This document shows positions 8,513-52,454 of a stretch of 64,000 nt of DNA, one piece after another; the stretch's first letter is position 1; every line of letters starts with the position of its first letter. The position numbers and the translations under genes are program-made. The stretch comes from Lysobacter silvisoli (GTDB lineage: Bacteria; Pseudomonadota; Gammaproteobacteria; Xanthomonadales; Xanthomonadaceae). Where the stretch lies: positions 372,001 through 436,000 of the forward strand of contig NZ_QTSU01000001.1 in NCBI RefSeq assembly GCF_003382365.1, in the 5' to 3' direction. The notes under the pieces are model-generated. The model did not search any database, was not told the DNA's origin, and saw only the letters and a list, made by a program, of their open reading frames with translations.

Positions 8513-8742
8513 CGTCGTTCCCGCGAACGCGGGAACCCAGGGCTTCATCCAGGTTGAAGCAGCGTGCCGGGGCCAACTACGGTGAGCGAACGGGAAACCG
8601 CAGCGCAGCCCATGATCCATTGCTCGCAAAGCCCCCTGAGTCAGGGGGCGCTCGCGCAGCGAGCGGGGGTTTGGAAGAAACGAGCCGGGGCCCGAGATTC
8701 GCGCAACGAATCTTGGGCTTCATGGGCGACGCCCATGAAGGG
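8513..8742. repeat. cluster of short hairpins between beta-propeller and SRP RNA genes
   Basis: No gene is seen. At least five palindromes lie side by side: GTTCCCGCGAACGCGGGAAC (about 8517-8536), CCCCCTGAGTCAGGGGG (8634-8650), GCTCGC-gca-GCGAGC (about 8652-8666), GATTCG-cgcaa-CGAATC (about 8697-8713) and CTTCATGGGC-gac-GCCCATGAAG (8718-8740). The last lies immediately downstream of the minus-strand SRP RNA and may form its 3' boundary, although no T tract follows. Confidence 0.65.
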
Positions 8743-45105: not shown

Positions 45106-45840
45106 TCAGGCCCCCGCCAACGTATCCTGCACCGCCTCGTCGAACCGCGCCAAATGCTCGCGCGACTGCGGTTCGCCGTGCAGTCCCTGCACCGCATCGA
45201 ACAGGCGCGCGGCGCCGACGAAGCCGCAGCTGGCGCGCAGCTTGTGCAGTTCGTTGCGCACGGTGGTCAAGTCCGCGCGGTGGGCCGCGCCCAGGATGGC
45301 TTCGTGGGTGACCGGCAATTCCTGCAGGAACAAGCCGCGCAACGTATCCACGTGGGCGCTGTTGCCGTTGAGCGCGCTGGCCGCGGCCTGGTCGTCCCAG
45401 ATCGGGCGCTTGTCGCCATAGGCCGTCTGCGCGATCGCGCGCTGGTCGTGCGGCTCCAGGCCCAGGGCGCGCGCGACGGCGGCGCGCACCGCGGCCGCGG
45501 GCAAGGGCTTGACCAGCACTTCGACAAAACCGGCCGCGATCAGCGTGTCCAGCACGTCGGCGTCGGCGGCCGCGGTGTGGGCCAGCGCCGGCGTGCGCGG
45601 GTGGCGCGCGCGCAGGCGCGCCAACAGCTCCACGCCGCTGCCGTCGGGCAGGTTGGCGTCGAACAGCCACAGCGCGTAGTCCTGTGCGTTGCCCAGCGTA
45701 ACCGCGGCCGCCAGGCTGTCGGCGGCGTCGACTTCGGCGGGTAGGGCCTGCAGGGCGGCGGTGAGGAAAGTGCGGCTGGTCGGATCGTCTTCCACCAGCA
45801 ACAGGCGCGGCGCGCGCGCCGGATTCATCGTCGATTCCAT
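45106..45840 (-). CDS. response regulator with C-terminal HPt domain
   Basis: This 244-residue signalling protein has a receiver domain (about 12-125) with acidic Asp18/Asp19, phosphoacceptor Asp61 (WLFDANLPDGSG) and Lys111, and a C-terminal histidine phosphotransfer domain with His199 in ELHKLRASCGFVGA. A receiver plus HPt in one chain lets phosphate move between them, typical of complex phosphorelays. No histidine kinase is adjacent, so its partner is elsewhere. The start at 45840 (MESTMNPA) is used; ATG at 45828 is possible. It is divergent from the YdbH-like gene, 33 bp apart. Confidence 0.85.
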   Translation of the reverse strand: MESTMNPARAPRLLLVEDDPTSRTFLTAALQALPAEVDAADSLAAAVTLGNAQDYALWLFDANLPDGSGVELLARLRARHPRTPALAHTAAADADVLDTLIAAGFVEVLVKPLPAAAVRAAVARALGLEPHDQRAIAQTAYGDKRPIWDDQAAASALNGNSAHVDTLRGLFLQELPVTHEAILGAAHRADLTTVRNELHKLRASCGFVGAARLFDAVQGLHGEPQSREHLARFDEAVQDTLAGA

Positions 45841-45873
45841 CGGGTGGGGGGCTCCGCTGGTTATGCTGACGTC

Positions 45874-47931
45874 ATGTCCCGTCCGATAGTACGCCTGCTG
45901 CTGTGCCTGTCGCTGCCCGGTTTGTGCTTGGCGGCACAGTCCGCCGACGCCGGCGGTCTGACCGCCAAGATCGGCCGGGTGCAGACCGCGGTGGCGACAT
46001 TGCGTGAAGTCCGCGTGAGGCTGGATTGGCCGGCCGCGGCCGAGCACGGCGAACTGCAGTTGCAGGCCGCCAGCGTGGTCGCGCCGGACCTGGGCTATCG
46101 CTATACCGACGTGGTCTGGCGCTGCCCGCTGCAGCGCGACGGCCAGGGCGGTTGGCGCTGCGATGGCGAGCTGCGCTCCGGCCGCGCGGCGCCACTGCGG
46201 CTGTCGCTGGACCTGGGCGTGGCAGTCACCGACGCGCGCCTGTCGCGCGGCGCGGCGGTGGTGGCCCTGCACCGCAACGCGGCCTCGCCGGACGCCACCC
46301 GCATCGACCTGACCCGGGTGCCGTTGGCCTGGACCCAGGCCCTGGCCGCGCAGGCCTGGCCCGAGGGCCGCTTCAAGGGCGGCGAGGTCGATGCGCAGCT
46401 GACCATCACCGCCGCCGAGCGCGAGCCTTTGCGCGTCGCCGGCCCGATCGCCTTGCGCGGCGGCGCCGTCGATACGCCCGACGGCCTGATCGCGGCCGAG
46501 AACCTGGGTGCGCAGTTGCAGCTCGACGCGCGCTTCGGCGAAACCAAGCGCTTCGATCTGGACGGTCGCGTGCAAGGCGGCGAACTGCTGTTCGGCAGCA
46601 CCTACGTCTCGTTGCAGCAGCGCGCGTCGGCGCTGCAGTTGACGGCGCAGAGCCTGCCCGGCGGCGGCTGGAACCTGCCGCGCCTGCGCTGGAACGATGC
46701 GGGCGTGCTCGACGCGCACGGCCGCGCCGCGCTGGACGCGCAGTCGAACGTGAGCGGCCTGGAACTGGACTTGCGCAGCGACGACCTGTCGCGGCTGCGC
46801 GACGGCTACCTCAGCGGCTACCTGGGCCTGGCCGGCCTGGGCCAGCTGCAACTGCGCGGCAGCGCCGACGCGCGTCTGCGCATGGCCGGCGGCGAACTGC
46901 ACAGCGCCGACGCCAGCTTGCAGGCGGTGGCGTTGGACGATGCGCAGGGGCGGTTCCGCTTCGACGGCCTGGACGGCAACCTGCGCTACTCCGCCGCTGC
47001 GCCCGTGGCCAGCGAACTGGGCTGGCGCGGAGGCGCGCTATACGGCTTGGATTTCGGCGCGGTGCGTTTGCCCTTCGCCAGCGGCGCCGGCGAGCTGCGC
47101 CTGCAACGCGCGGTGACGGTGCCGATGCTGGGCGGCACGGTCGGGTTCGACGACCTGCGCCTGCGACCGCCCTCGGGCGGGCGCGGCCTGGACATCCGCT
47201 TCGGCCTGAGCCTGGACCGGTTGGACATCGCGCGCATCGCCAAGACCCTGGACGGCCCGGCGTTCAGCGGCCAACTCAGCGGGCGCATCCCGCAGGCGCG
47301 CTACGCCGACGATCGGCTGGATTTCGACGGCGGCCTGAGCATGCAGCTGTTCGGCGGCAGCGTGCGGGTGTCGTCGCTGGCGATGGAGCGGCCGTTCGGC
47401 GTGGCGCCCACGCTGTCGGCCGACCTGGCACTGGACGACCTGGACCTGGAGGCGCTGACCGGCGTGTTCGGTTTCGGCAGCATCACCGGCAAGCTCGACG
47501 GCCGCATCGATGCGCTGCGCCTGGTGGACTGGACGCCGGTGGCCTTCGACGCGCGCCTGCAAACCCAGCGCAAGCCCGGCGTGCGCCAGCGCATCAGCCA
47601 GCGCGCAGTGCAGGACCTGTCCAGCGTCGGCGATTCGTCCCTGGTCGGCAGCCTGCAGGCCAGCCTGATCGGCTTCTTCGATGACTTCGGCTACGCCCGC
47701 CTGGGCATCGCCTGCCGCCTGGCCGACGAGGTCTGCCACATGGGCGGCTTGGAGTCGGACGATGGCGGTGCAGAAGGTCGTGATTCAGGCACCAAGGGAT
47801 TTATTATCGTCCAGGGCGCGGGACTGCCGCGCCTGGACGTGGTCGGCTATCACCGCCGGGTCGACTGGCCGACCTTGCTGGAACGGCTCGAGGCCGTGGG
47901 CAAGGGCGACGTCAAACCGGTAGTCCAATAA
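45874..47931 (+). CDS. YdbH-like AsmA-fold envelope protein
   Basis: This 685-residue protein has a signal peptide or anchor (about 1-26) and then a long beta-rich repetitive region with alternating hydrophobic and charged residues, ending in a domain with LVDWTPVAFDARLQTQ, RQRISQRAVQDLSSVG and an IACRLADEVCHMGG cysteine pair. This matches the YdbH family: AsmA/Tam-type bridges forming a lipid-conducting groove between membranes. It is followed 21 bp later by a lipoprotein carrying YnbE/YdbL features, as in the E. coli ydbH-ynbE-ydbL operon, so a role in phospholipid transport to the outer membrane is inferred. The ATG at 45874 is preferred. Confidence 0.8.
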   Translation: MSRPIVRLLLCLSLPGLCLAAQSADAGGLTAKIGRVQTAVATLREVRVRLDWPAAAEHGELQLQAASVVAPDLGYRYTDVVWRCPLQRDGQGGWRCDGELRSGRAAPLRLSLDLGVAVTDARLSRGAAVVALHRNAASPDATRIDLTRVPLAWTQALAAQAWPEGRFKGGEVDAQLTITAAEREPLRVAGPIALRGGAVDTPDGLIAAENLGAQLQLDARFGETKRFDLDGRVQGGELLFGSTYVSLQQRASALQLTAQSLPGGGWNLPRLRWNDAGVLDAHGRAALDAQSNVSGLELDLRSDDLSRLRDGYLSGYLGLAGLGQLQLRGSADARLRMAGGELHSADASLQAVALDDAQGRFRFDGLDGNLRYSAAAPVASELGWRGGALYGLDFGAVRLPFASGAGELRLQRAVTVPMLGGTVGFDDLRLRPPSGGRGLDIRFGLSLDRLDIARIAKTLDGPAFSGQLSGRIPQARYADDRLDFDGGLSMQLFGGSVRVSSLAMERPFGVAPTLSADLALDDLDLEALTGVFGFGSITGKLDGRIDALRLVDWTPVAFDARLQTQRKPGVRQRISQRAVQDLSSVGDSSLVGSLQASLIGFFDDFGYARLGIACRLADEVCHMGGLESDDGGAEGRDSGTKGFIIVQGAGLPRLDVVGYHRRVDWPTLLERLEAVGKGDVKPVVQ

Positions 47932-47952
47932 CCTGAAGGGAAGGAAACGAAC

Positions 47953-48552
47953 ATGCGCCGTTGGATGGGTTTGCCGGTCGCCGCCGTGATGCTCACGGCC
48001 TGCGTCACGATCAACGTCTACTTCCCCGCCGCCGAGGCCAAGGAAGCGGCCAAGGAGTTCGTCGAGAAGGTCATCGGCGAGAGCGCGCAGCCGGTCACGC
48101 CGGCCCCGGCGCCCCCGTCCGGCGGCAGCGCCTCGCTGAGCCCGCGCATCGACCTGTGGTCGCTGGTCGGCATCGGCAGCGCCTATGCGCAGTCCTCGCC
48201 CGACATCACCATCAAGACCCCGGCGATCCAGGCGATCCAGGCGCGCATGAAGGGCCGTTTCGACGGCCAACTGCGCGCCCACTTCGACTCCGGCGCGCTG
48301 GGCTTCGGCAACGACGGCACGGTCAGCGTGCGCGATGCGGCCAAGATCCCGCTGGCCGAGCGCGTGGGCGTGAACCAGGCGGTGGCCGACCAGAACCGCG
48401 ACTCGGCCGCGGTCTACCGCGAGGTCGCGGTGGCCAACGGCCATCCCGAATGGGAGCCGCAGATCCGCAAGGTGTTCGCGCGTCAGTGGATCGACAGCGC
48501 GCGCGGCGGCTGGTGGTACGAGGATGCGGGCGGCGGTTGGAAGCAGAAGTGA
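47953..48552 (+). CDS. DUF1318 lipoprotein, apparent YnbE-YdbL fusion
   Basis: This 199-residue protein has a lipobox LTAC (Cys17), followed by VTINVYFPAAEAKEAA, which resembles the short outer-membrane lipoprotein YnbE. After a Pro/Ser-rich linker (about 45-75) with a second possible processing site (AYAQS near 77-81) comes a DUF1318 domain: GRFDGQLRAHFDSGALGFGNDG and AVADQNRDSAAVYREVA, as in YdbL. In E. coli YnbE and YdbL are separate; YnbE partners YdbH in the bridge and YdbL restrains it. One chain here would tether the YdbL part to the outer membrane, unless processed. A terminator follows. Confidence 0.8.
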   Translation: MRRWMGLPVAAVMLTACVTINVYFPAAEAKEAAKEFVEKVIGESAQPVTPAPAPPSGGSASLSPRIDLWSLVGIGSAYAQSSPDITIKTPAIQAIQARMKGRFDGQLRAHFDSGALGFGNDGTVSVRDAAKIPLAERVGVNQAVADQNRDSAAVYREVAVANGHPEWEPQIRKVFARQWIDSARGGWWYEDAGGGWKQK

Positions 48553-48578
48553 GCCGCTGGCGGCCGTAGCCGTTCGCG

Positions 48579-48606
48579 AAAGGCCCGCCATCGGCGGGCC
48601 TTTTCG
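48579..48606 (+). terminator. Rho-independent terminator after the DUF1318 gene
   Basis: A stem AAGGCCCGCC/GGCGGGCCTT (about 48580-48602) with a 3-base loop is followed by TTTTCG, 27 bases past the stop codon. Confidence 0.85.
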
Positions 48607-48688
48607 TTGGGCGGGAGGGTAGACGCCGATAGTCGGTGCCAGTGGGGCCGGTCAGGCCGAAGGGCAGGGCCCGCCGCAGCGGCGTCGT

Positions 48689-48803
48689 CCCGTCATTCCC
48701 GCGAAGGCGGGCTCCGCTTTACTTCGGCGTGAGCCGAACATCCAGGGCTCCACCGAGACATGGCTCCGAAGTCTCCGGACTCCCGCCTTCGCGGGAATGA
48801 CGG
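48689..48803. repeat. GTCATTCC-type inverted repeat, copy 4
   Basis: Arms of 22-23 bases starting CCGTCATTCCCGCGAAGGCG (48689-48711) and its partner ending CGCGGGAATGACGG (48782-48803) surround a 70-base interior that contains further small palindromes (GGCTCC..GGAGCC-like pieces). Its arms carry CCCGC-gaa-GGCGGG in place of the CCGGC palindrome of copies 1, 2 and 5. It lies between the DUF1318 terminator and rlmD. Confidence 0.8.
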
Positions 48804-48887
48804 TCGACAGTGGAGCCATCCGCCCCAACCGGATCGCCCCGCCCGAATCTGCGACAATGCGCGGCCTTTTGATTCCTGCCAGCAGCT

Positions 48888-50216
48888 GTGGCCCGCATCG
48901 ATCAAACCCCCTTCGAGGCCGCCATTACCGGCCTCACCCATGATGGCCGTGGCGTCGCCCGGCGTCCCGATGGCAAAGCGGTCTTCGTCGCCGGCGCCCT
49001 GCCGGGCGAACGGGTGATGGCCAGGCAGACCGCGCGCTCGCGCAGCTTCGACGAAGCGGTGACGCTGGAGGTGCTGGAAGCCTCGGCCGAGCGCGTGAGC
49101 CCGCGCTGCGCGCATTTCGGCACCTGCGGCGGCTGTGCCCTGCAGCACCTGGCCGAGGACCGCCAGATCGTGGCCAAGCAGCACGTGCTGCTGGAGAACC
49201 TGGAGCGGATCGGCCATGTCGCGCCCGAGCGCGTGCTGCCGGCTTTGACCGATTCCGCCTGGGGCTACCGGCGCAAGGGCCGGTTCTCGGTGCGGCGGGT
49301 GGAGAAGAAGGACAAGACCCTGGTCGGCTTCCGCGAAACCGACCCGCGTTTCGTCGCCGACATCGCGCGCTGCGAGACGGTGATTCCGGCCATCGGCGAC
49401 AAGGTTTCTGCGCTGGCCGCGCTGATCGACGGCCTGCAGGCGCGGCGCGAGATTCCGCAGGTGGAGTTCATCGGCGGCGACCGCATGAGCGACCACGGCG
49501 GCATCGCCCTGACCTTCCGCCACTTGGCTCCGCTGTCGGAGGCCGATCGCGAAGCGCTGATCGCTTTCGGCCGCGAGCACGAGTTCGCGATCTTCCTCCA
49601 GCCCGGCGGCGTGGACAGCGTGCACCCGCTGTGGCCGGCCGATCCGCAACTGCAGTTCTCGCTGCCGGAATGGGACCTGCAGCTGAAGTTCCGACCGTTG
49701 GATTTCATCCAGGTCAACGCGGGGCTCAACGGCCGCATGATCCAGCACGCGCTGGAACTGCTGAAGCCGCAGCCCGAAGACCGGGTGCTCGATCTGTTCG
49801 CCGGCCTGGGCAACTTCACCCTGCCGCTGGCGCGCCGCGTGCGCGAGGTGGTGGGGGTGGAAGGCGAGGCCGGCCTGGTTCAGCGCGCGCGCGAAAACGC
49901 GGCGCACAATGGGCTGGGCAATGCGCAGTTCTACGCGGCCGACCTGGGCAAGGACCTGAGTTCGGAGCCGTGGATGCGCGAGGGTTTCGACCGGCTGCTG
50001 CTGGACCCGCCGCGTTCGGGCGCGGACTTCGTGCTGACCCAGCTGCCGTTGAAGCAGTTCAAGCGCATCGTCTACGTGAGCTGCCACCCGGCTTCGCTGG
50101 CGCGCGACGCGGGCTATCTGGTGCGGGAAAAGGGCTGGAAGCTGCGCGCGGCCGGTGTCATGGACATGTTCCCGCATACTGCGCATGTGGAGTCGATCGC
50201 GATGTTCGAGCGCTGA
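48888..50216 (+). CDS. rlmD: 23S rRNA (uracil-1939 C5)-methyltransferase RlmD
   Basis: RlmD (442 residues) methylates U1939 of 23S rRNA with SAM. It has an N-terminal TRAM domain, then a 4Fe-4S cluster site with Cys74, Cys80, Cys83 and Cys162, then the SAM-binding VLDLFAGLGNFTLPL and the catalytic Cys399 in VSCHPASLARD; LLLDPPRSGA is the second signature. The GTG start (48888) follows CAGCAG; the next ATG would cut into TRAM. It is a single-gene unit between two repeat regions. Confidence 0.95.
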   Translation: MARIDQTPFEAAITGLTHDGRGVARRPDGKAVFVAGALPGERVMARQTARSRSFDEAVTLEVLEASAERVSPRCAHFGTCGGCALQHLAEDRQIVAKQHVLLENLERIGHVAPERVLPALTDSAWGYRRKGRFSVRRVEKKDKTLVGFRETDPRFVADIARCETVIPAIGDKVSALAALIDGLQARREIPQVEFIGGDRMSDHGGIALTFRHLAPLSEADREALIAFGREHEFAIFLQPGGVDSVHPLWPADPQLQFSLPEWDLQLKFRPLDFIQVNAGLNGRMIQHALELLKPQPEDRVLDLFAGLGNFTLPLARRVREVVGVEGEAGLVQRARENAAHNGLGNAQFYAADLGKDLSSEPWMREGFDRLLLDPPRSGADFVLTQLPLKQFKRIVYVSCHPASLARDAGYLVREKGWKLRAAGVMDMFPHTAHVESIAMFER

Positions 50217-51458: not shown

Positions 51459-52454
51459 ATGCTCGTGATCGGCGTCGCCGGTACCGAACTCACCGCGCAG
51501 GAGCGCGACTGGCTGCAGCACGATGCCTGCGCCGGCGTGATCCTGTTCACCCGCAATTTCGCCTCCCGCTCCCAGGTCGCCGAGCTCAGCGCCGCGATCC
51601 GCGAGGCCGCGCCGCGTCCGCAGCTGATCTGCGTGGACCAGGAGGGCGGGCGCGTGCAGCGTTTCCGCGACGGTTACAGCGCGCTGCCCGCGCTGGACGG
51701 TTTCGGCAGGCTCTATGCCAGCGACCGCGAGGCCGCGCTCAAGCTCGCCGAGGAGCACGCCTGGCTGATGGCGCAGGAAGTGCGCGCCAGCGGCGTGGAT
51801 CTGAGCTTCGCGCCGGTGGTGGACCTGGGCCGCGGCAACCTGGCCATTGGCGACCGCGCCTTCGATCCGGACCCGCAGGTGGTGGCCGAATTCACCCGCG
51901 CCTACGTGCGCGGCATGCACGCGGCCGGCATGGCCGCGACCCTCAAGCACTTCCCGGGCCACGGCTCGGTGCTGGAGGACACCCATTTCGACAATGCCGT
52001 CGATCGGCGCAGCCTGGAACAGCTGCGCGAGACCGACCTGATCCCGTTCGTGGCCGGCATCGAGGCCAAGGCCGACGCGGTGATGATGGCGCATGTGGTC
52101 TATCCGGAAGTCGCGCCCGAGCCGGCCGGTTATTCGCCGCGCTGGATCGAGCAGATCCTGCGCCAGGACATGGGCTTTCGCGGCGTGGTCTTCAGCGACG
52201 ACATCGGCATGGCCGCGGCGTTCTCCGCCGGCGGGGTCAAGGCGCGCATCGACGCGCATCTGGACGCCGGTTGCGACGTGGTGCTGGTGTGCTCGCCCAA
52301 GCTGGTCGAGGAATCGCTGGCCGCGGTGTCGGGCCGCGCGCTCAACACCATGGCGCTGACCGGCCTGATCGGCCGCGGTGCGATGGGCTGGGACGGCCTG
52401 CTCGCCGACGCGCGCTACGGCGACAGCCGCGGCCGCGTGGAGGGTCTGGCCTGA
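51459..52454 (+). CDS. nagZ: beta-N-acetylglucosaminidase NagZ
   Basis: NagZ (331 residues) removes GlcNAc from anhydromuropeptides in cell-wall recycling. GH3 motif KHFPGHG (163-169) and EDTHFD, with His176 as the acid/base partner, and Asp248 in FSDDIGM as the nucleophile match the positions known for Salmonella NagZ. AGGAG lies 9 bases before the ATG. Its stop codon overlaps the start of the phosphoribosyltransferase gene (TGATG). Muropeptides altered by NagZ act as inducers of AmpC-type beta-lactamases in many relatives. Confidence 0.95.
   Translation: MLVIGVAGTELTAQERDWLQHDACAGVILFTRNFASRSQVAELSAAIREAAPRPQLICVDQEGGRVQRFRDGYSALPALDGFGRLYASDREAALKLAEEHAWLMAQEVRASGVDLSFAPVVDLGRGNLAIGDRAFDPDPQVVAEFTRAYVRGMHAAGMAATLKHFPGHGSVLEDTHFDNAVDRRSLEQLRETDLIPFVAGIEAKADAVMMAHVVYPEVAPEPAGYSPRWIEQILRQDMGFRGVVFSDDIGMAAAFSAGGVKARIDAHLDAGCDVVLVCSPKLVEESLAAVSGRALNTMALTGLIGRGAMGWDGLLADARYGDSRGRVEGLA

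Follow-up and report, generated by a model that had tools for sequence, protein, structure and literature searches.

A probable YdbH-YnbE-YdbL type system of Lysobacter silvisoli with tether and chaperone in one precursor, likely cut at the joint

We analysed a stretch of 64,000 nucleotides from Lysobacter silvisoli (Gammaproteobacteria, Xanthomonadaceae; contig NZ_QTSU01000001.1, positions 372,001 to 436,000), referred to below as the window, in which the gene of a predicted groove protein is followed by the gene of a lipoprotein with a YdbL domain (Table 1). Our interpretation, to which we give a probability of roughly 0.6, is that the two genes encode a lipid-carrying system of the YdbH-YnbE-YdbL type, with the outer-membrane tether and its chaperone made as one precursor which is likely cut at the joint. 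This is a widespread variant of a known system, and its testable surprise is that almost all fusions retain an internal site of the signal-peptidase type; a second, softer surprise is that the groove protein appears to have no evident inner-membrane anchor. A preliminary description of this DNA, made from the letters, had proposed a YdbH-like open reading frame (ORF) and, 21 bp on, one lipoprotein ORF; both frames proved to be open, with coordinates as claimed.

The C-terminal half of the lipoprotein is YdbL by profile and by fold, which confirms the DUF1318 (YdbL-like) domain proposed in the preliminary description. PF07027 (DUF1318) covers residues 103–199 at 57.7 bits against a cut-off of 27 (E value in Table 1), and a profile of 48 diverse fusions matches E. 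coli YdbL (28oj) at E = 4.4e−7. In an AlphaFold2 (AF2) model of the lipoprotein built from 64 alignment rows, residues 105–199 superpose on the 28oj crystal structure with Z = 10.7 and a root-mean-square deviation (rmsd) of 1.8 Å over 86/87 residues, and Foldseek pairs 28oj with the model of the YdbL half at a probability of 1.00 (E = 2.3e−3). PDB lists 28oj as “Probable chaperone-like protein YdbL”, in line with a chaperone-like role of this protein: in an E. coli study published in the Proceedings of the National Academy of Sciences (PNAS) in 2024, YdbL reportedly keeps a YnbE-type lipoprotein from runaway assembly.

Between the two halves lies AYAQS (residues 77–81), which the preliminary description had picked out as a second possible signal-peptidase site. 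Signal peptidase I requires small residues at positions −1 and −3, with an uncharged hydrophobic stretch ahead of them. In an alignment of 87 fusions −1 (Ala79) is Ala in 87/87 and −3 (Ala77) is Ala in 85/87, with Val in two (L100 and L142), while −2 is free at 2.79 bits; as a motif the site is therefore real and almost invariant. At positions −4 and −5 the residues P, S, G and A predominate, and Gln follows the site in 36 of the 63 rows which fill that position. Ahead of it, columns 43–68 are gap-rich and mostly at 2.6–3.8 bits, apart from column 55, which is mostly Pro, and two columns with few residues; near the site conservation is otherwise seen in column 69, chiefly Leu, and column 74, with Ile or Val. 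An alignment-free count gave a similar result: Ala-x-Ala lies among the nine residues directly ahead of the YdbL strand in 85/87 fusions of this class-wide set (all but L100 and L135), whereas in 2000 shuffles of the linkers it did so in 16.0 of 87 on average and in 29 at most. When at least five of ILMFVW were also required in the preceding 14 residues the count was 79/87, compared to a mean of 2.0 and a maximum of 7 in 500 shuffles. Residues 73–82 are predicted to be disordered, with a predicted local distance difference test (pLDDT) score below 50, whereas the YdbL domain is modelled confidently.

The same place is marked in relatives where the two halves are encoded separately. In four loci from four family codes (L102, L364, L365 and L366) the gene for a short lipoprotein with CVTINIYFP is followed, 0–61 bp on, by a separate YdbL gene, whose product has a strong signal peptide ending AQA, AHA, VQA or AQA just before the strand which follows the joint in fusions. 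The fusion joint and the end of the free-YdbL signal peptide are the same place, whichever direction the changes ran. In a quick tree, weakly resolved with 52 of its 98 inner forks open and L366 a long branch, the four splits lie among fused rows, giving at least two changes of state.

The fusion is a common architecture and no local oddity. PF07027 was present in 92 of 323 genomes of the class, 50 of 60 relatives and 119 of 397 genomes of the phylum, and the 4.5 Mb genome of the window encodes a single DUF1318 protein. Of 90 class-wide DUF1318 loci (the window not counted, G324 not included), 59 were fused and 28 were E. coli-type, one was a split of the fused type (L102) and two were set aside (L097 for a run of N, L119 for a frame break); by family code the fused architecture was also commoner than the E. 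coli one (36 vs 21), and one code, f128, holds both. The fused majority holds for this class draw; the phylum draw was read in part and has many frames of 107–160 amino acids, split by length. Over all 120 loci there were 86 fused, in 44 family codes, and 31 E. coli-type, with YnbE upstream in 30 of the 31, the other (L148) beginning at a contig start. Among 20 further loci picked, five outside the class (L352, L353, L355, L356 and L357) were fused with an Ala-x-Ala-type or close joint, three were splits of the fused type, one was a fusion without a linker and six were of another lipoprotein kind. These last six (L358–L363, outside the class) have Cys and then a form of GGPLLEVTLVDERTALENQVLGSY in place of the CVTINVYFP start; no adjoining type-B groove gene (the type found in the window) was found for them, and L358 has a weak type-A match (7.3e−5). 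The nearest titled relatives of the window’s lipoprotein, in a listing which may omit entries from this genome or one very close to it, are from Lysobacter species, the top match reaching 92% over the whole lipoprotein. In a scan of named genome contigs the best 80 of at least 569 confirmed loci were all fused, at 50–92% identity to the window’s protein, with a long ORF directly upstream in 77 and the remaining three starting too close to a contig end.

Groove gene and lipoprotein gene also tend to occur together. In 74 of the 86 fused loci the lipoprotein gene has a type-B groove gene ahead of it, at a spacing of −4 to 304 bp (median 42), and in a set of 33 mutually related genomes of our choosing it was found in 16/17 genomes with a type-B lipoprotein vs 0/16 without one (11 with no DUF1318, 5 E. 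coli-type). In 12 genomes with no DUF1318 match a profile search, which had no positive control, found no fused lipoprotein either. Six genomes of the window’s own family (G020, G025, G029, G035, G205 and G301) show neither the lipoprotein nor a type-B groove gene, and the system therefore seems dispensable in that family.

The N-terminal half of the precursor is less easily named. The preliminary description had called its start YnbE-like, and CVTINVYFP is indeed present at residues 17–25, after a lipobox-like site; Cys17, Phe24 and Pro25 are invariant and Val18, Thr19, Asn21 and Tyr23 are at 90% or more in the 48 diverse fusions, although these were chosen by a loose form of this motif, Cys17 included. 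Homology to YnbE, on the other hand, was not borne out by profile comparison. The separate profile match which had been looked for in this half was not obtained either, residues 1–73 having no Pfam or NCBIfam match at E ≤ 10, which in the strict sense contradicts the preliminary description. Aligned by hhalign with the YnbE proteins of E. coli and of 30 split loci, the tether half gave a probability of 2 over six columns (I-T-I-N and two others), and 5/200 shuffles were equally good; with the lipobox removed, rows trimmed and more rows added, 10/200 shuffles were as good locally and 120/200 globally. Sequence homology was therefore rejected as proof. The tether half is encoded between groove protein and YdbL, as YnbE is, and we use the name YnbE for it by position and function only: it may work like YnbE, which, according to two articles (PMC12977461, PMC11784454), works together with YdbH.

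The groove protein probably represents a distant branch of YdbH, judged mainly by its C-terminal block and its partners. Its AF2 model (mean pLDDT 87) consists of nearly all long strands. The window’s protein has no Pfam match at E ≤ 10, and the NCBIfam YdbH model reaches E = 0.16 only. When a type-B profile was compared by hhalign, YdbH came first (E = 1.1e−7), followed by TamB (1.5e−6, residues 28–432) and YhdP (2.5e−5). The last 115 columns taken alone still matched YdbH (probability 23, E = 8.9e−4, 35 columns) with none of 60 shuffles as good, whereas for TamB and YhdP the score was reached by 11/60 and 14/60 shuffles. These two comparisons do not favour an identity as TamB or YhdP. Against single E. 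coli proteins the type-B profile was uninformative (TamB 0.018, YdbH 0.027, AsmA 0.044, YhdP 0.3), and the hit of 7.6e−32 between the type-B model and split locus L080 was discarded as circular, L080 having been in the model; it is 3.2e−6 without L080. A PDB fold search with the groove protein gave no match at E ≤ 0.001 among 449, and a second structural aligner gave large-rmsd matches only, the best being ApoB (Z = 10.6, rmsd 15.3 Å); neither had an AsmA-like chain in its best 50.

The N-terminus of the groove protein seems to differ from what is expected of the E. coli proteins. According to PMC8593681, the AsmA-like proteins of E. coli are predicted to be anchored in the inner membrane through an N-terminal helix, about 22 residues long. 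Type-A relatives agree with this prediction. The uncharged N-terminal run averages 16.3 residues in type B (n = 74) vs 22.0 in type A (n = 27), with a mean Kyte-Doolittle (KD) hydropathy over 19 residues of 1.80 vs 2.41. Just before the first strand, a loose small-x-small motif is found in 73/74 type-B and 15/27 type-A proteins, and a strict Ala-x-Ala in 40/74 and 1/27; it should be noted that the limits of these stretches were set by our choice of alignment column. The type-B groove protein thus seems, from its sequence, to have a cleavable signal peptide in place of the membrane anchor of E. coli YdbH.

Several observations weigh against the proposed system and its cut. In the best ten-residue segment before the site the mean KD is 1.48 in the window’s protein and 1.79 over the 87 fusions, compared to 2.38 for the lipoprotein signals of the same proteins and 2.67 for the N-termini of 34 unfused loci, and a charged residue falls within it in 71/87 fusions; the internal site is an unusual signal peptidase I substrate. 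One of the further loci, L354, fuses a lipoprotein to DUF1318 with neither the linker nor its Ala-x-Ala, and no groove gene was found in the 5 kb covered. Twelve of the 86 fusions have no adjoining groove gene; eleven have one elsewhere in the genome and in G096 none was found, its fusion (L135) also having an insertion of about 26 residues between the site and the YdbL strand and being possibly a decaying copy. The missing homology between the tether half and YnbE counts on the same side. One alternative, which we consider unlikely, is that the chain is never cut: tether and YdbL would act as a single covalent chain, so that at the outer membrane the chaperone would stay bound to its client, and the Ala-x-Ala segment would be a small-residue docking or turn element which folds only on the groove protein. 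The weak hydrophobicity fits this, as does the frequent D, S, E or N at position 70, halfway along the stretch (71/87), unlike a normal signal peptide, and the invariant Ala pair could pack on a partner missing from the single-chain model; the free −2 between an almost fixed −1 and −3, the residues preferred at −4 and −5, the mostly gap-rich and variable linker ahead, the unstructured stretch in the model and the real signal peptide which ends at the same spot in four split relatives all speak for a cut instead. That Ala-x-Ala is merely left over from an earlier gene fusion and has no present use is very improbable: the free YdbL of split relatives does have a signal peptide there, but a relic would be expected to decay, yet the motif is retained in fusions 29–92% identical to the window’s, and in nearly all by the alignment-free count. 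Hardly credible is the idea that two products arise by translation, with an internal start in the linker yielding a second chain with its own signal peptide. A start codon is found 15–30 codons upstream of the site in 47/86 fusions (ATG in 18), but a Shine-Dalgarno-like stretch precedes such a codon in 1/86, the level of a downstream control (also 1/86, with start codons in 37/86), and no start codon is listed in codons 41–80 of the window’s gene; this candidate was rejected. We regard a cut of the chain at the joint, releasing YdbL, as likely rather than firm, because the hydrophobic stretch ahead of the site is weak.

The groove protein could also belong to another AsmA-like family, not orthologous to YdbH, which shares the DUF1318 lipoprotein as a partner and has a job other than phospholipid bridging. 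We consider this improbable, although several observations speak for it: besides the lack of a Pfam match in the window, one of 59 relatives reaches PF11739 at 0.071 and two reach DUF748 (PF05359) at 0.11 or weaker, and the inner-membrane anchor is seemingly missing. With the HMMER filters off, moreover, the type-B profile scores TamB best (3.6e−9) and YhdP next (1.4e−7), above type-A YdbH (1e−6, with 11/28 below 1e−3), E. coli AsmA being at 2.6e−4; this ranking, too, weighs against YdbH. The reverse search with a type-A profile, however, favours type B (best 2e−9, 36/78 below 1e−3) over TamB (1.5e−7), hhalign puts YdbH first and the C-terminal end matches YdbH alone. The partners are identical in kind (a lipoprotein and YdbL), and the groove proteins of L352, L356 and L357, from outside the class, match both the type-B profile (7.8e−71 to 4.2e−91) and the type-A profile (7.6e−5 to 3.3e−10). 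TamB and YhdP, AsmA-like bridges redundant with YdbH in phospholipid transport, are both encoded elsewhere in the window’s genome, in which PF11739 has no match at E ≤ 1. The label YdbH-like given in the preliminary description is thus supported by hhalign, by the C-terminal end and by partner co-occurrence, and not by HMMER with its filters off.

If the YdbH-type system with a cut precursor is accepted, the following sequence of events can be proposed. The groove protein would be exported to the periplasm and, judging by its modelled strand-rich fold and by analogy with YdbH, form a long beta-groove for phospholipid tails. The precursor would be exported, lipidated at Cys17, as its lipobox suggests, and sent to the outer membrane, where VTINVYF might extend the groove protein by one strand at its C-terminal end and so tether it; in E. 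coli, YnbE is said to join YdbH by strand addition (the PNAS study of 2024). The YdbL half may stop the tether from self-assembling until the groove protein is met, as the E. coli work would suggest. Before the lipoprotein leaves the inner membrane, signal peptidase I would most likely cleave the chain behind Ala79; the products would be a short lipoprotein and a free YdbL, the pair which the four split relatives make from two genes. The fusion would supply tether and chaperone in equal numbers. The full version of this model, in which signal peptidase I cuts a lipidated lipoprotein at an internal, weakened signal-peptide remnant and frees the chaperone from its client 1:1 in the service of a periplasmic, un-anchored YdbH-type lipid groove, is offered tentatively, as somewhat less probable than its negation.

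The phospholipid route to the outer membrane is an open question, and a natural tether-YdbL fusion in 44 family codes is independent evidence that both act together; it also opens the chaperone idea to direct tests. Should the cut be real, signal peptidase I would be acting, unusually, on a lipoprotein at an internal position. Should the groove protein truly have no anchor in the inner membrane, the “bridge” picture would have to be extended, for these bacteria, by a shuttle or an inner-membrane partner. A literature search found no account of this lipoprotein-YdbL fusion, which carries little weight as a paper on YdbH and YnbE and one on P. aeruginosa YdbH were outside its coverage.

Table 1 Features of the gene pair in the window (residue numbers are those of the encoded protein).
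Feature	Position	Strand	Basis
Groove-protein gene (YdbH-type, termed type B)	45874..47931	+	ORF, ATG start, 685 amino acids
Probable cleavable signal peptide, about residues 1–21, no long membrane anchor	45874..45936	+	sequence; end point is a guess
C-terminal block, residues 465–617, aligning with E. coli YdbH 655–807	47266..47724	+	hhalign, probability 94.2, E = 1.1e−7
21-bp intergenic gap with purine-rich, ribosome-binding-like stretch	47932..47952	+	sequence, by eye
Fused lipoprotein-YdbL precursor gene	47953..48552	+	ORF, ATG start, 199 amino acids; PF07027, E = 1.7e−15
Lipoprotein signal peptide, residues 1–16, with lipobox-like LTA↓C (residues 14–17)	47953..48000	+	by eye
Mature N-terminus CVTINVYFP, residues 17–25, proposed docking strand for groove protein	48001..48027	+	conservation; docking by inference from E. 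coli
Helix of tether half, residues 26–41	48028..48075	+	AF2, block pLDDT 53–75
Weakly hydrophobic stretch RIDLWSLVGIGS, residues 65–76, before the cut-site motif	48145..48180	+	KD
Signal-peptidase-I-type motif AYA↓Q, residues 77–80	48181..48192	+	conservation in 87 fusions
YdbL (DUF1318) domain, residues 90–199	48220..48549	+	AF2, block pLDDT 92–98
Perfect GC-rich inverted repeat, then TTC; candidate terminator of the gene pair	48580..48602	+	by eye

The short gap with its ribosome-binding-like stretch suggests that the two genes are co-transcribed. A promoter scan of 45700–48900 found none, and the GC-rich inverted repeat is not one of the two sites given by a terminator scan. A 20-bp repeat, GTCATTCCCGCGAAGGCGGG, forms an inverted pair 3′ of the gene pair (48692–48711, + strand; 48782–48801, − strand) and has weaker copies at 8514 and 12391; with four matches in the window at up to 2 mismatches, vs 0.01 expected, it looks like a dispersed intergenic repeat. 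The downstream neighbours are 48888–50216, by its sequence presumably an RNA uracil methyltransferase of the RlmD type, and 51459–52454, which we take, also by sequence, to be a beta-hexosaminidase of the NagZ type. A frame similar to the RlmD-type neighbour also follows in L019 and L025.

When compared to the ydbH-ynbE-ydbL genes of E. coli, which encode an intermembrane lipid bridge, an outer-membrane lipoprotein and the chaperone-like YdbL, the window has the same gene order of groove protein, lipoprotein and DUF1318, but lipoprotein and YdbL form one ORF with an Ala-x-Ala joint where E. coli has two genes. E. coli YdbH is longer than the window’s groove protein (879 vs 685 amino acids); the C-terminal block aligns between the two, and the start of the window’s protein resembles a signal peptide instead of an inner-membrane anchor. 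PF11739, the curated YdbH-like family of the E. coli type, is touched weakly by a single relative out of 59 and is without a match in the window’s genome at the threshold given above. TamB and YhdP are beta-groove proteins and resemble type B by profile in the repeat region, more strongly with the HMMER filters off, whereas the type-B C-terminal end does not match them above shuffles and both are already present in the same genome. The tether half is not alignable with E. coli YnbE. The YdbL domain matches PF07027 well above its cut-off; in the tree it falls in a fused branch, apart from the one formed by split, E. coli-type rows (96*, flagged for a long branch); relative to E. coli YdbL (28oj), the part of the domain before residue 105 falls outside the structural match.

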